DNA of 64,000 nucleotides from Euzebya rosea (GTDB taxonomy: Bacteria; Actinomycetota; Nitriliruptoria; Euzebyales; Euzebyaceae). Made by a program: the position numbers and the translations under genes. The stretch lies in NCBI RefSeq assembly GCF_003073135.1, contig NZ_PGDQ01000002.1:1-64000 (forward strand), in the 5' to 3' direction. Each line of letters opens with the position of its first letter. Position 1 is the first letter of the stretch. The notes under the pieces are model-generated. The model was given only the letters and a program-made list of their open reading frames with translations, ran no database searches and was not told where the DNA came from. Below are positions 49,015 through 53,944 of the stretch, one piece after another.

Positions 49015-50135
<1,121 letters not shown>

Positions 50136-50149
<14 letters not shown>

Positions 50150-50729
50150 CCGGTCCCCGCACCGGTCGATGCAGGTCGTCGGCGCCCCGCGCCGCAGCCT
50201 GTTCGACGCGGTCCGGCCCGCCGACGTGCAGGCGGCCGGGGACCGGATCCGGGGACCCGGCGGTGTGGCGCTTGCGGCGCTGCGCCATGCCGGGGTCACC
50301 GGCGGCGAGCTGACCCCGGCCGACGCCGTCGTCCTCGGTGGTCGCGCCTTCGGGACGTTGCGTGACGGGTGGATGGGGGCCGGGGAGGACGACGCCCTGG
50401 CGCTGGGGTACGGGGTGGCCGCCATCCGCAGTCGGCGGACGGCAGGCGGGCGGACGTGGGTGCTGCTGCGCACCGCCGCGTTCACGCAGGGGGCGACGAT
50501 GGAAGCTGCCGCGATGCTGCCGGGGCTCGACCCGGTCCGCCTGTGCCCCGTGGTGGTCGGGCCGCGGGACGACGCCGACCGCATCGTCGGGCTGCTGCGG
50601 GCGATGGGCCTGTCGGTGCATCCCGCCGACAACGACGACGCCTGGTCGGTCCTGTCGGCCCTCGACCACGCCGTTCGTGACGCAGATGACGGGGCGACCG
50701 CCGTCGTGGCCACGAGGGCGTCGCGGTGA
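50136..50729 (+). CDS. Transketolase N-terminal-half-like protein, degenerate
   Basis: The 197-residue protein resembles the TPP-binding N-terminal half of transketolase: ALALGYGVAAIRSRRT (like the LxxGxGxA segment), VLLRTAAFTQGATMEAAAML (where active enzymes have GDGE...EGxxxEA), a strand-helix, and HPADNDDAWSVLSALDHAV (like the VDGHD segment). The GDG TPP/metal-binding motif and the HxxTPG element are not there. It overlaps the prfB stop by 14 bp and the next gene by 4 bp. I infer a non-catalytic, or differently acting, subunit paired with the next gene. The similarity is by pattern only. Confidence 0.5.
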
Positions 50730-51499
50730 GTACCGAGGTCGCCCCGTCGCTGGCCCAGTCCTTCGGGGAGGTGCTGGTCCGGCTGGCGGGTGAGCGGCCG
50801 GGGTTGCTGGTCGTCTCGGGACCGGACACGTCCCTGGTCAGCTGGTTCACCCAGATCTGGCCCGAACGCCTGGTGACCGTCGCACCGGCGGCGTCGCGGC
50901 TGTCGGTCGGCCAAGGCATCCGGCGCGGCGGCGGTGAGGCCATCGTCGTGCTCGACGAGACCGTCGGTGTGCTGCCGTCGGGGTTGACGGCGCCGATGGT
51001 CCTGCTGAGCGCCGACCGAATGCACCTCGGGGCGGCCCACCGGGCCGGGATCACCGTCTGCCAGCCGGGCTGGGAGCTGGACCTCCCCGCCCTGCTGATC
51101 GGGTCCCTGGGTGCCGACGAACCGGTGATGCTGCACCTGCCCGAGCCGATGGAGGGCTTGCCGGAGCAGCCGGACCCCGAGCGCACCTCGTTCGGGGATC
51201 CCCGGGTGCTGCACCGGGGCCGCCGGGGCCTGGTCGTCGGGGCCGGTCCGACGGCACCCGTTGCCGCCTGGGTGGCCCGACGGCTGGCTGGGCAGCAGGT
51301 CGACGTGCTGGCCCTGGACAGCCACACCATGGGGGCCGACAGCGGCGTGGACACCGACGTGCTCGTCGACCACCTGCTGGTCGGCCCGGTCACCGCCCCG
51401 CGGGCCGGTGCGCTGGAGGCCGTCCGTGTTGATCCCAGCGACCTCAACGGCCTCGTCAGGGCGGTCCGACGGACCCTCCCGGGCATGTCGGGAAGCTGA
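50726..51499 (+). CDS. Transketolase C-terminal-half-like protein, degenerate
   Basis: The 257-residue protein resembles the pyrimidine-binding and C-terminal domains of transketolase: SFGEVLVRLAGERPGLLVVS, LVTVAPAASRLSVGQGIRRGG (active enzymes have GIAEQ with the catalytic Glu; here it is absent), then a linker and a C-terminal domain (RRGLVVGAGPTAPVAAWVA, QVDVLALDSHTM). It is coupled to the preceding half by a 4-bp overlap. Together they cover a split transketolase, but both lack TPP signatures, so classical activity is unlikely. Confidence 0.5.
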   Translation: MSTEVAPSLAQSFGEVLVRLAGERPGLLVVSGPDTSLVSWFTQIWPERLVTVAPAASRLSVGQGIRRGGGEAIVVLDETVGVLPSGLTAPMVLLSADRMHLGAAHRAGITVCQPGWELDLPALLIGSLGADEPVMLHLPEPMEGLPEQPDPERTSFGDPRVLHRGRRGLVVGAGPTAPVAAWVARRLAGQQVDVLALDSHTMGADSGVDTDVLVDHLLVGPVTAPRAGALEAVRVDPSDLNGLVRAVRRTLPGMSGS

Positions 51500-51545
51500 C
51501 GGGGTCACCGTCGAACCAGCGACGTGGCCTAGGCTCCTCGGCACC

Positions 51546-52220
51546 ATGACGGTCGATCCGGATTCGCGTGATCCCTATCAACGGATGGGGGTGCATCGCA
51601 ACCCGTTCGTCGCCGAGGACACGCCGGGTGTCGAGGAGTCCGTCCGCGTCGACGTCGGGGTGCCTGCCCCGCCCGCCCGCGGCGTGGTCGAGGTCATCGG
51701 ATGCAAGGGGGCCGGCAAGACCACGCACCTGATGGCGTGGCTGCGGGACCGGCCGGGGCCCTACCGCCACGTCGACCCCGGGCTCGCCAGGTTCGGGCCG
51801 TTCCCCATGCCGACGGTCGGGGGGACCGTGGCCTGGGACGAGGTCGACCGCGTGCCCCCGACACTGCTGCGCATCGCGGTGGCACGGGCCCGGCGTCGTG
51901 GGGCCCTGGTCCTGCTGGGCACCCACCGACGCACGGGGCTCGCCGACCACAGCCACGTCCTGCCGGTCCCGACCGCGACGACGGTCCTGGCCTTCGCCGA
52001 GCGCCGGATCGCGGCGGCCAGGATCCGACCGGACACCAACAACGTGGAGCCATCGCTCGAGCTGCCCACGGCCGTCGCCGCCGACATCGCACGACGGGCC
52101 GCCGGCTGCTGGTGGACCGTGGGGACCGAGCTGCACCGCTGGGCCGCTGCGCGTGCGGCAGCCACGGGCGTGGCCGTCGAGCACCGCTGGGCGTCGTCGC
52201 CGGCCGGGAGCGGATCGTGA
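51546..52220 (+). CDS. Small P-loop ATPase, ExeA-like N-terminus
   Basis: The 224-residue protein begins DPYQRMGVHRNPFVAED, a pattern seen at the start of ExeA-type ATPases (xxFGLxxxPF), followed by Walker A GCKGAGKTTHLMAWL (about residues 53-67), a putative Walker B VAWDEVDRV, a sensor-like LVLLGTHRRTGL and an all-helical lid. It is shorter than regular AAA proteins. It starts at the ATG at 51546. Its TGA overlaps the next GTG as GTGA. The associated genes suggest a membrane or stress function; the partner is unknown. Confidence 0.7.
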   Translation: MTVDPDSRDPYQRMGVHRNPFVAEDTPGVEESVRVDVGVPAPPARGVVEVIGCKGAGKTTHLMAWLRDRPGPYRHVDPGLARFGPFPMPTVGGTVAWDEVDRVPPTLLRIAVARARRRGALVLLGTHRRTGLADHSHVLPVPTATTVLAFAERRIAAARIRPDTNNVEPSLELPTAVAADIARRAAGCWWTVGTELHRWAAARAAATGVAVEHRWASSPAGSGS

Positions 52221-52849
52221 CCCAGGACCTGCCGCACACCATCGCCTCCCGAGGGGACACGGGTCGGCTGACCGCCGTCCCCCTTGTCATCGCGATCGTC
52301 CTCGGGATGCTGGCCGCCGTCCTCCTCGCCGTCCCCACGACCGGGACCCGGGTGGCCGGGCTCGTGATAGCCGTCATCACCGGGTTCCTGGTGTGGGTCT
52401 GGCGGCGCAACAAGCGGATCACCGACCGCCTGGAGCCCGGGGTCATCGACGTGCCCTCGACGGTCTTCTTCCTCGGCAGCAGGGTCCCCGCCCGGTTCCG
52501 ACGGCTGGTCAAGCAGGGCACCACCGACACCGTCGACCTCACCGCTCGGCTCGTGCTCAAGGAATGGGTCAGGTACCGACAGGGCACCGACACCCGAACC
52601 GCCAGCGAGGAGATCCAGTCCATCCCCGTGGAGGTCGTCAGGGCATGGGACGGCCGCCACGTCATCGGGGAGATGTTGCTGGAGATCCCCGCCTTCCCGC
52701 CCAGCTTCGCGGCCACCGACAACACGGTGTCCTGGGAGCTGCACGTCGACATGACCTTCGCCGACGGGTTCACCGAGGACTCCGTCATCCCGCTCTGGGT
52801 CGTCCCCGCGGCGCAGCGCAGCGACCTCCAGCGGCTGGGGCTGATGTGA
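52217..52849 (+). CDS. Two-helix membrane protein with a C-terminal beta domain
   Basis: The 210-residue protein has two membrane helices (VPLVIAIVLGMLAAVLLAV and GLVIAVITGFLVWVW, residues about 21-60) and a cytoplasmic-type domain (about 65-210) with strands SIPVEVVRAW, VIGEMLLEIPAFPPS and VSWELHVDMTF followed by EDSVIPLWV. The latter resembles one half of an arrestin-like fold, as in the next gene. It is coupled by 4-bp overlaps on both sides. Function is unknown. Confidence 0.6.
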   Translation: MTQDLPHTIASRGDTGRLTAVPLVIAIVLGMLAAVLLAVPTTGTRVAGLVIAVITGFLVWVWRRNKRITDRLEPGVIDVPSTVFFLGSRVPARFRRLVKQGTTDTVDLTARLVLKEWVRYRQGTDTRTASEEIQSIPVEVVRAWDGRHVIGEMLLEIPAFPPSFAATDNTVSWELHVDMTFADGFTEDSVIPLWVVPAAQRSDLQRLGLM

Positions 52850-53211
52850 TCACCCTGGAGATCGACCGCCGCGTCGCCGTCGTCGGCGACACCCTCCGCG
52901 CCCGTGCCAGCTGGCAGCACGACAAGGCGCCCAAGGAGGTCCGGGTCGAGCTGCGCTGGTACACCGAGGGTCGAGGCACCCGCAACCGCGGGGTCGCCGG
53001 TCGTGTGGTGCACCGGGCCGACGCGGGTCCCATCCCACCGGTCATCGACGCCGTCCTGACCGTGCCGCGCGAGGGGCCGGTCACCTACGACGGCTCGATG
53101 ATCCGCATCCGGTGGGAGGTGCACGCCACCGTCGACGTGGCGTGGGCGCGCGACCCCGACGCCTCCGTGCCCCTCGTCGTGCGACCGGGAGTGGCCGAGG
53201 ATGGGCGCTGA
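52846..53211 (+). CDS. Arrestin-like / Spo0M-type beta-sandwich protein
   Basis: The 121-residue protein is all beta: ITLEIDRRVAVVGDTLRARAS, VRVELRWYTEGRG, VIDAVLTVPREGPVTYDG, MIRIRWEVHATVDVAWARD. This is the layout of an arrestin N- or C-terminal sandwich, with the typical 'xGDxIRxx' turn. The GTG start overlaps the previous stop by 4 bp. It may form a complex with the membrane protein encoded just upstream, inferred from translational coupling. Confidence 0.6.
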   Translation: MITLEIDRRVAVVGDTLRARASWQHDKAPKEVRVELRWYTEGRGTRNRGVAGRVVHRADAGPIPPVIDAVLTVPREGPVTYDGSMIRIRWEVHATVDVAWARDPDASVPLVVRPGVAEDGR

Positions 53212-53944
53212 GGACTACCCCGACCGCTCGCCCCACGCCATCGGCCGGGCCGCCGCCACCCAGCTGTGGCGTGACGTCACCATGCTGCACTGGCGGATCG
53301 ACGCCGGCCGGCTGCAGGCGCTGCTCCCCGACGGGCTCGAACCCGACCTGTTCGACGGGTCGGCCTGGGCGTCGCTGGTGCCATTCGAGATGGTCGACCT
53401 GACCCTTCCGCCGCTGCCGGCCATCCCCCGGCTGACCACGTTCCCCGAGACCAACGTCCGCACCTACGTCCGCGGTGCGCTCGGCCCTGCGGTGTGGTTC
53501 CACTCCCTCGACGTCACCCGTGCGTGGATGCCACCCACCGCCCGGACCCTCTTCGGGGTGCCCTACACGTGGTCGCGCATGCGCATCCTCCGGCGGGGCC
53601 CCGCGGGGGAGGGGCAGGAGCTGCGGTACTGGTGCCGTCGTCGCTGGCCGCGTCCCGTCGGCGCCACCAGCCTCGTCGGGGTTCGCGTCGGCACGACGGT
53701 TGCCGCCGACGACCTCGACCGCTTCCTCGTCAACCGCTGGGCGGCCTACAGCATGGTCAGGGGTGTCCTGCACCACGCGCCGGTGATCCACGACCCCTGG
53801 CCGCTGCACCGGGCCGAGACCACGGTCGTGCGCGACGAGCTCGGCGCCGCCGTCGGGTTGCCGCTGGCCGACGTCGAACGGGTTCGGTTCTCGCCGTCGG
53901 CGACCGCCGTGGTCTTCGACTGGGCCAGACCCGTCCCGAAATGA
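53201..53944 (+). CDS. DUF2071 (YqjF-like) protein
   Basis: The 247-residue protein fits the DUF2071 family: QLWRDVTMLHWRIDAGRLQALLPDGLEPDLFDGSAWASLVPF, FPETNVRTYVR, GVPYTWSRM and HRAETTVVRDELGAAVGLP. The fold is that of acetoacetate-decarboxylase-like proteins. The reaction is unknown. The ATG overlaps the previous gene by 11 bp. The paa operator begins one base after its stop. Confidence 0.85.
   Translation: MGAEDYPDRSPHAIGRAAATQLWRDVTMLHWRIDAGRLQALLPDGLEPDLFDGSAWASLVPFEMVDLTLPPLPAIPRLTTFPETNVRTYVRGALGPAVWFHSLDVTRAWMPPTARTLFGVPYTWSRMRILRRGPAGEGQELRYWCRRRWPRPVGATSLVGVRVGTTVAADDLDRFLVNRWAAYSMVRGVLHHAPVIHDPWPLHRAETTVVRDELGAAVGLPLADVERVRFSPSATAVVFDWARPVPK

Follow-up and report, generated by a model that had tools for sequence, protein, structure and literature searches.

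Three overlapping genes of Euzebya rosea are predicted to encode an AAA+ ATPase and a membrane-tethered, split arrestin-like partner

We report on three consecutive genes, g3, g4 and g5, that lie in a stretch of 64,000 nucleotides from Euzebya rosea (contig NZ_PGDQ01000002.1, positions 1 to 64,000 of the forward strand); we refer to this whole stretch as the window. According to structure models, g3 is a minimal AAA+ ATPase consisting of a base plus a lid, and g4 is a two-helix membrane anchor followed by a C-terminal arrestin-fold domain; judged from its sequence, g5 is a soluble second arrestin lobe. We propose, with a probability of roughly 0.58, that the three products form a self-contained, three-part complex of an AAA+ ATPase and a split arrestin at the inner face of the cytoplasmic membrane. 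The wider claim is that such loci encode an obligate three-component machine in cyanobacteria, planctomycetes and actinobacteria, in which a dedicated AAA+ ATPase works a membrane-tethered split arrestin whose lobes flank the hairpin; this we hold a little less firmly, at somewhat better than even odds. The support that we computed covers folds, gene linkage, gene fusion and co-occurrence.

At both junctions of the trio the neighboring genes overlap by 4 bp (GTGA). These overlaps, and the close spacing of the trio to the pair of genes before it, had been described in the first-pass annotation of this DNA, and the frames are found as it placed them (Table 1). In a congener, G003, all three genes are intact and have start and stop codons identical to those of the window, with amino acid identities of 79% for g3, 82% for g4 and 92% for g5, and ratios of nonsynonymous to synonymous substitution rates (dN/dS) of 0.26, 0.23 and 0.11, respectively. 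Because the genes are intact in G003 with such low dN/dS, all three look to be translated and under purifying selection; and because, in addition, they have homologues in other phyla, the sequence comparisons lead us to conclude that the trio is more than a product of chance.

The AlphaFold2 model of g3 was built from 11 sequences (predicted local distance difference test score, pLDDT, 78). Its best match among solved structures is Hda (Z 12.4, root-mean-square deviation, rmsd, 3.5, 158 residues aligned), followed by DnaA domain III, RFC and ORC, and its Foldseek matches include RuvB and FtsH. Thymidine kinases, too, stand high among the fold matches; we set them aside, as their alignments span only about 90 residues. 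The features of an AAA+ protein, namely Walker A, Walker B, a likely sensor 1 and a C-terminal lid, are all present. Walker A and Walker B are conserved across the 11 rows of the g3 alignment (A8), so that the small P-loop ATPase recognized in the first-pass annotation is upheld, with a predicted AAA+ fold. In the g3 rows of planctomycetes whose partners are fused (see below), some positions of Walker A differ with the G-x-G-K core kept, and the tryptophan of Walker B is replaced with DE and R kept. The GTH that we take for sensor 1 ends a strand of the model (residues 121-126), and an NPF motif near the N-terminus is kept in every aligned row. The sensor-2 position, covered by 20 of the 21 aligned g3 rows, holds arginine in 18, all of them outside the genus, and tryptophan in the window and G003. 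The window g3 itself gives weak AAA matches alone, below the cut-off. AAA_16 of Pfam matches two of 11 g3 homologues (best E-value 1.1e-5), and one g3 from the Acidimicrobiia gives, in NCBIfam, generic ABC-type P-loop matches far below the cut-offs. A search of solved structures by sequence returned no AAA or arrestin protein among its matches.

The model of g4, built from 10 sequences (pLDDT 81), has two long helices followed by a beta-sandwich. The sandwich is best matched by the arrestin lobe of TXNIP/VDUP-1 (Z 10.8, rmsd 3.4, 126 residues aligned; Foldseek E 1.3e-7), with further matches to ARRDC3, VPS26, arrestins and Spo0M (Foldseek E 4.5e-6). The first-pass annotation had described g4 as a two-helix membrane protein: two hydrophobic helices are indeed predicted, and what that description missed is the arrestin-fold domain at the C-terminus. 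It is this sandwich, rather than the helices, that forms the conserved portion of g4. Hydropathy profiles have two segments in seven of the nine g4 proteins tested and one in those of L036 and L040; in the fusions they have two segments in two of four, and one in those of L074 and L078. We regard a hairpin as likely across the g4 homologues. The second helix of the window g4 closes with RRNKR, and positive charges are fewer elsewhere around the hairpin; because of RRNKR at the hairpin end, the positive-inside rule would place the arrestin domain in the cytoplasm. Arrestin_N is found in six of 10 g4 rows at E ≤ 0.1 (best 2.6e-4), the window g4 not being among the six; neither Arrestin_N nor Arrestin_C is among the matches listed for it.

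By profile comparison, g5 is homologous to the arrestin domain of g4. Arrestin_N is found in seven of 10 g5 rows at E ≤ 0.1 (best 5.8e-6), and for the window g5 it gives E 0.061, with 13.8 bits against a cut-off of 24.9. Like g3, the window g5 has no hydrophobic segment. At four planctomycete loci, g5, the membrane helices and g4 are a single protein. All three of the fusions scanned pass the cut-offs of both Arrestin_N and Arrestin_C, the best Arrestin_N stretch lying on the first lobe and the best Arrestin_C stretch on the second, and the hydrophobic segments sit between the two lobes. Therefore, as far as homology can tell, a single two-lobed arrestin-like protein is divided over two genes in the window, g5 and g4 each corresponding to one lobe. 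The first-pass annotation counted a single arrestin-like protein; g5 is arrestin-like, as it said, but the lobes number two, and g4 has the other. The family PF07070 (Spo0M) is also above its cut-off in two of the three fusions. At the site of the g5 TEGRG signature the fusions are similar, not identical.

Two further observations concern the fusions. The genome G520 carries two tandem fused arrestin-transmembrane-arrestin genes (L097:1845-5094, minus strand), from which the partner appears to be duplicated in some planctomycetes. The fusions of L074, L078 and L097 continue beyond the second lobe for about 100 residues or more, and these C-terminal extensions look alike by eye.

Table 1. Positions in the window of the trio, its motifs and domains, and the genes around it.
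Feature	Position	Strand	Remarks
g3	51546-52220	+	ATG start, TGA stop; 224 amino acids
g4	52217-52849	+	GTG start, TGA stop; 210 amino acids
g5	52846-53211	+	GTG start, TGA stop; 121 amino acids
g3 Walker A, GCKGAGKT	51699-51722	+	residues 52-59; invariant except residue 53 (11 rows of A8)
g3 Walker B, WDE..R	51834-51851	+	residues 97-102; W, D, E and R invariant (11 rows of A8)
g3 GTH, likely sensor 1	51918-51926	+	residues 125-127; H invariant in 11 rows of A8; putative role
g3 residue 190, Trp at sensor-2 Arg position	52113-52115	+	Trp in window and G003
g4 predicted transmembrane hairpin	52265-52423	+	helices 17-37 and 42-69 (DSSP of model; hydropathy, charge)
g4 predicted arrestin-fold beta-sandwich	52442-52804	+	residues 76-196
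g5 TEGRG signature	52963-52977	+	residues 40-44; invariant in 10 rows of A9
g5 GP-x-x-YDG signature	53074-53094	+	residues 77-83; P78, Y81 and G83 invariant in A9 (10 rows), D82 in at least 9 of them
TAGGCT, possible -10 element	51530-51535	+	10 nt before g3 start; putative promoter
prfB	49145-50149		upstream of g1; name by reading alone
g1	50136-50729		upstream of g2; start overlaps prfB end
g2	50726-51499	+	upstream of g3, same strand; 46 bp gap before g3 start
DUF2071 gene	53201-53944		downstream of g5
paaABC-like frames			downstream of g5; names by reading alone

The distant relatives of the trio allow us to ask how constantly its three genes travel together. A scan of genome contigs using g3 alone found no relative. 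On plasmids, tblastn gave two weak matches (E 3e-3 and E 1e-2), both in pANACY.03 of Anabaena cylindrica, and these are credible because they are adjacent, with a g5 gene between them. Gene order on the plasmid is g4, g5, g3; the first two share a 4-bp overlap, and g3 is interrupted by about 1.8 kb (L030:8976-10769). The insert resembled an insertion element, but the one frame compared with Pfam matched no family. When genomes were scanned with an alignment of three g3 rows, 11 loci emerged: nine in cyanobacteria, one in Alienimonas chondri, which we take to be a planctomycete, and one in a metagenome-assembled genome (MAG) of the Acidimicrobiales. The g3 profile matched 6 of 386 genomes of a cyanobacterial sample, 7 of 343 sampled around Alienimonas, 1 of 346 sampled around the window and, from the class to which the Acidimicrobiales MAG belongs, 3 of 247; the counts include the centre genomes and, for the cyanobacteria, also one genome already known. 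Phages gave no match to g3; plasmid searches with the Anabaena g4 and g5 matched the Anabaena record alone, and those with the planctomycete proteins gave no match.

Outside the window, g3 is thus known from 25 genomes or records: G003, the Anabaena plasmid, 11 from the three-row scan and 12 new ones from the phylum samples (G063 and G066 each hold a further, partial piece of g3, which the locus count leaves out). In 20 of the 25, g4 and g5 adjoin g3 and share its strand. Fifteen of these loci have the order g4-g5-g3 (12 in cyanobacteria, three in the class that includes the Acidimicrobiales MAG), the four planctomycete loci have g3 followed by the fused g5-transmembrane-g4 gene, and G003 alone has g3-g4-g5 as in the window. 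At least two of the 20 linked loci are damaged, with g3 interrupted in Anabaena and broken in L041, and two others end at a contig boundary, within g3 in L038 and within g4 in L080. The partners are on another contig in four of the 25, namely G151 and G061 (a g4-g5 pair in each), G573 (fusion) and G520 (two fusions); in G520 contig ends lie close by both pieces, so g3 and the fusions may be neighbors there. The remaining one of the 25 is the MAG G063, described below. Around the loci little else recurs. When all frames of the flanks are compared, no neighboring gene is common to more than three loci; three clusters of neighbors span three loci and 22 span two. The three-locus clusters are kinase/PAS-like (three cyanobacteria), FtsY-like by reading (three Acidimicrobiia loci) and kinase-like (two cyanobacteria and one planctomycete). 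At one locus, in the Acidimicrobiales MAG (L040:5983-7998), the g3 frame continues stop-free into a NamZ exo-beta-N-acetylmuramidase (PF07075, PF20732), which is either a real fusion or a fault of assembly.

In the sample of 386 cyanobacterial genomes, the six that bear g3 are the six that have g5, even though the genes are unlinked in G151; the g3 and g5 searches each covered 386 genomes, which we take as the same draw, the 26 handles on both lists being identical. Two of the six were known beforehand, and the probability that the other four agree by chance is about 1e-9 under an assumption of independent genomes, which does not hold, as two of the genomes are near relatives in the tree. A search for g5 in 12 chosen genomes matched nine, the misses being G063 and two congeners, G001 and G002, that are also without g3. 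Over 21 genomes (the window included), the pairwise distance matrices of g3, g4 and g5 have correlations of 0.87, 0.85 and 0.90, and none of 5000 label permutations gave a value as high. Distances and tree omit L030, L038 and L080, where a part is incomplete, and the set does not include L033 (truncated g4) or L041 (broken g3). In a midpoint-rooted FastTree of the joined alignments, the cyanobacteria group together with support 0.99 and six planctomycetes with 1.0; Alienimonas and two Acidimicrobiia are placed apart from their kin, with support of 0.73-0.86, which is compatible with lateral transfer and not proof of it.

If the three products do form a complex, it most likely works as follows. 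The transmembrane hairpin would tether the arrestin lobe of g4 to the membrane, and the soluble g5 lobe would pair with it to form a two-lobed arrestin-like scaffold at the inner membrane face. The scaffold would recruit a membrane client; g3 would dock on the scaffold and, through ATP binding and hydrolysis, would remodel, load or release that client, by analogy with AAA+ proteins that act with adaptors. The assembly, the cytoplasmic side and the ATP-driven handling of a client are what we infer beyond the computed support. The first-pass annotation had suggested an undescribed chaperone or envelope complex. The trio is a conserved unit and does look like an undescribed, membrane-proximal AAA+ complex; the word chaperone is plausible for a function at which we can arrive only by inference.

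A number of observations weigh against our proposal. The tryptophan at g3 position 190 may make ATP hydrolysis in this genus weak or switch-like; the sensor-2 arginine is not conserved across all AAA+ proteins. The structure models come from 10 to 11 sequences. In G151, G061 and G573 the ATPase gene is unlinked to its partners, and in the MAG G063 g3 is accompanied by a truncated g4 only, with no match to g5 at E ≤ 0.01. The correlated distances in part reflect shared ancestry. Some trio loci, finally, adjoin defence genes.

This last point leads to an alternative that we consider unlikely, though not negligible: that the trio is a conflict system, anti-phage or self-limiting, in which sensing would fall to the AAA+ protein with the arrestin lobes, and the membrane would be the target of the two-helix protein. 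The patchy spread across phyla, in the four samples counted above, looks like that of a horizontally moved system. The plasmid copy, with its interrupted g3, lies 2-3.5 kb from csx18, cas1 and cas2. When 10 proteins from the flanks of seven loci were compared with PADLOC, without a random-locus control, three gave defence-type matches: in the cyanobacterial genome G154, a type IIG restriction enzyme-methyltransferase of full length, only 43 bp away from the trio (L072:2421-6023, minus strand); in L034, an OLD/GajA-like ATPase, matched at its N-terminus; and in L036, a protein with a weak likeness to reverse transcriptases (26 bits). The helices of the window g4 have a weak match to SLATT_1 (E 0.055, below the cut-off). 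The remaining flank proteins of that scan, however, were unmatched or matched general enzyme domains, many flanks are housekeeping-like by eye, and no defence gene is common to different loci. The trio proteins themselves match PADLOC weakly (nine scanned; best 3.2e-4, 17.6 bits, over g3 residues 47-140), and conservation in g4 lies in the sandwich rather than in its helices.

A second alternative, distinctly improbable in our estimation, is a nucleotide-controlled switch: the ATP or ADP state of g3 would set the hold of the arrestin lobes on a receptor, transporter or kinase, by analogy with eukaryotic arrestins, by which receptors are gated. Arrestin lobes of known families bind the tails of membrane proteins, and a g3 that has lost the sensor-2 arginine in this genus and has no domain beyond base and lid might suit such a role; kinase-like frames flank three loci in two phyla, by eye. 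Yet g3 retains Walker A, Walker B and GTH, the arginine in the 18 rows outside the genus suggests hydrolysis elsewhere, and no receptor gene is common to the loci.

There is little to recommend a role in cell shape or division like that of Spo0M, an arrestin-clan protein that in Bacillus interacts with FtsZ and co-precipitates with it (PMC5325327). Spo0M is among the best Foldseek matches of g4, and PF07070 passes its cut-off in fusions as noted, but Spo0M is not among the matches listed for the window proteins up to E 5, a patchy distribution is contrary to a core role in division, and no division gene is common to the flanks.

The first-pass annotation had also tied the trio to the two genes before it, g1 and g2, as a possible five-protein complex, and this we discount almost entirely. 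The pair is adjacent to the trio, 46 bp away and on one strand, and the gene order from g1 through paaA in G003 is that of the window, with start and stop codons alike. Orthologues scattered without conserved linkage had been named beforehand as what would refute the idea. The five-gene order is seen in G003 only; by this test the complex of five genes does not hold up, and that of three does. In a sample of 61 genomes, consisting of the window's own (G000) and 60 relatives, g3 and g4 are found in G000 and G003 alone; a third g5 match, in G034 (6.8e-4), is antisense within a large oxidoreductase-like frame and is thus a chance match. In contrast, g2 is found in 11 of the 61. The congeners G001 and G002 keep prfB-g1-g2 and lack the trio, G002 having the DUF2071 gene directly after g2 and G001 a different frame there; G013, G015 and G029 have g1- and g2-like frames near prfB and no trio match. 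The stretches taken from G018 and G011 show no prfB. Conversely, 30 stretches of genomes with distant trios contain no match to the g1 or g2 profile at E ≤ 0.001, and a possible promoter of its own (see below) precedes g3. Because the pair persists without the trio and is not found at the distant trio loci, we conclude from these comparisons that the gain or loss of the trio at this spot did not involve g1-g2. Nor is the label of the pair as transketolase-like confirmed, since neither g1 nor g2 has a Pfam or NCBIfam match above the cut-off. As an observation in its own right, g1-g2 (50136-51499) is an undescribed prfB-linked pair, kept beside prfB in G001, G002 and G003; in at least two of G013, G015 and G029, where g1- and g2-like frames are near prfB, a gene that is ftsE-like by reading follows.

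It remains to place the trio among known systems. Arrestin-fold proteins are known as eukaryotic adaptors for membrane cargo. The trio resembles the arrestin clan (arrestins, alpha-arrestins/TXNIP, VPS26 and Spo0M) in that the g4 domain has the lobe fold and g5 is homologous to it; it differs in that the window's lobes are two proteins, joined in one chain only in planctomycete homologues, and in that it has a hairpin tether, between the lobes when fused, and an AAA+ ATPase. With Hda, DnaA domain III and RuvB/RFC-like modules, g3 shares base plus lid, Walker A and B and the likely sensor 1, and unlike them it has the NPF motif, arrestin partners and, in this genus, a lost sensor-2 arginine. 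MoxR AAA+/vWA modules encode an AAA+ ATPase with beta-sandwich and membrane partners, and the likeness to the trio extends to that general idea; g1 to g5 and the DUF2071 gene have no MoxR-type or vWA match in Pfam or NCBIfam, in agreement with the first-pass annotation, which had found no exact match to such modules. For PspA systems, PMC11237479 describes an AAA+ protein proposed to act at the membrane with membrane partners, whereas the trio has no PspA, Toastrack or SHOCT match; the words 'arrestin' and 'Spo0M' are absent from the main text of that paper, as 'arrestin' is from the main texts of PMC8195603 and PMC7159879. As a system, the trio is described by none of the families in Pfam, NCBIfam, PADLOC or PHROGs, and PHROGs gave no match for the five proteins given. 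Among the matches listed from titles and the starts of abstracts of open-licence papers, an AAA+/arrestin module is undescribed; papers outside that set could hold one. We know of no earlier bacterial arrestin-type adaptor system powered by its own AAA+ protein. The folds of the parts are known; their combination, an AAA+ ATPase with a membrane-tethered split arrestin, is that of no system found here or known to us.

If our proposal is true, the trio offers a compact, three-gene handle on the binding targets of bacterial arrestins, and an energy-driven use of the arrestin fold would be demonstrated. The bacterial relative Spo0M is poorly understood (PMC2515105 and PMC5325327). Given the tight co-occurrence of the genes, the idea of a machine lends itself to direct tests; practical entry points are those filamentous cyanobacteria whose trio is intact and an expression host in the laboratory.

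Upstream of g3 lies the sequence TAGGCT, which in G003 is found 8 nt before the g3 ATG. The trio may therefore have a near-leaderless promoter of its own at this site. The window holds three copies of TAGGCT where single-base composition, as a weak control, would predict 16.5, and two of the three sit 9-10 nt before a start codon. The copies at 51530 and 47642 (minus strand), of a sequence depleted in the window, are a possible leaderless-promoter signature of this organism.

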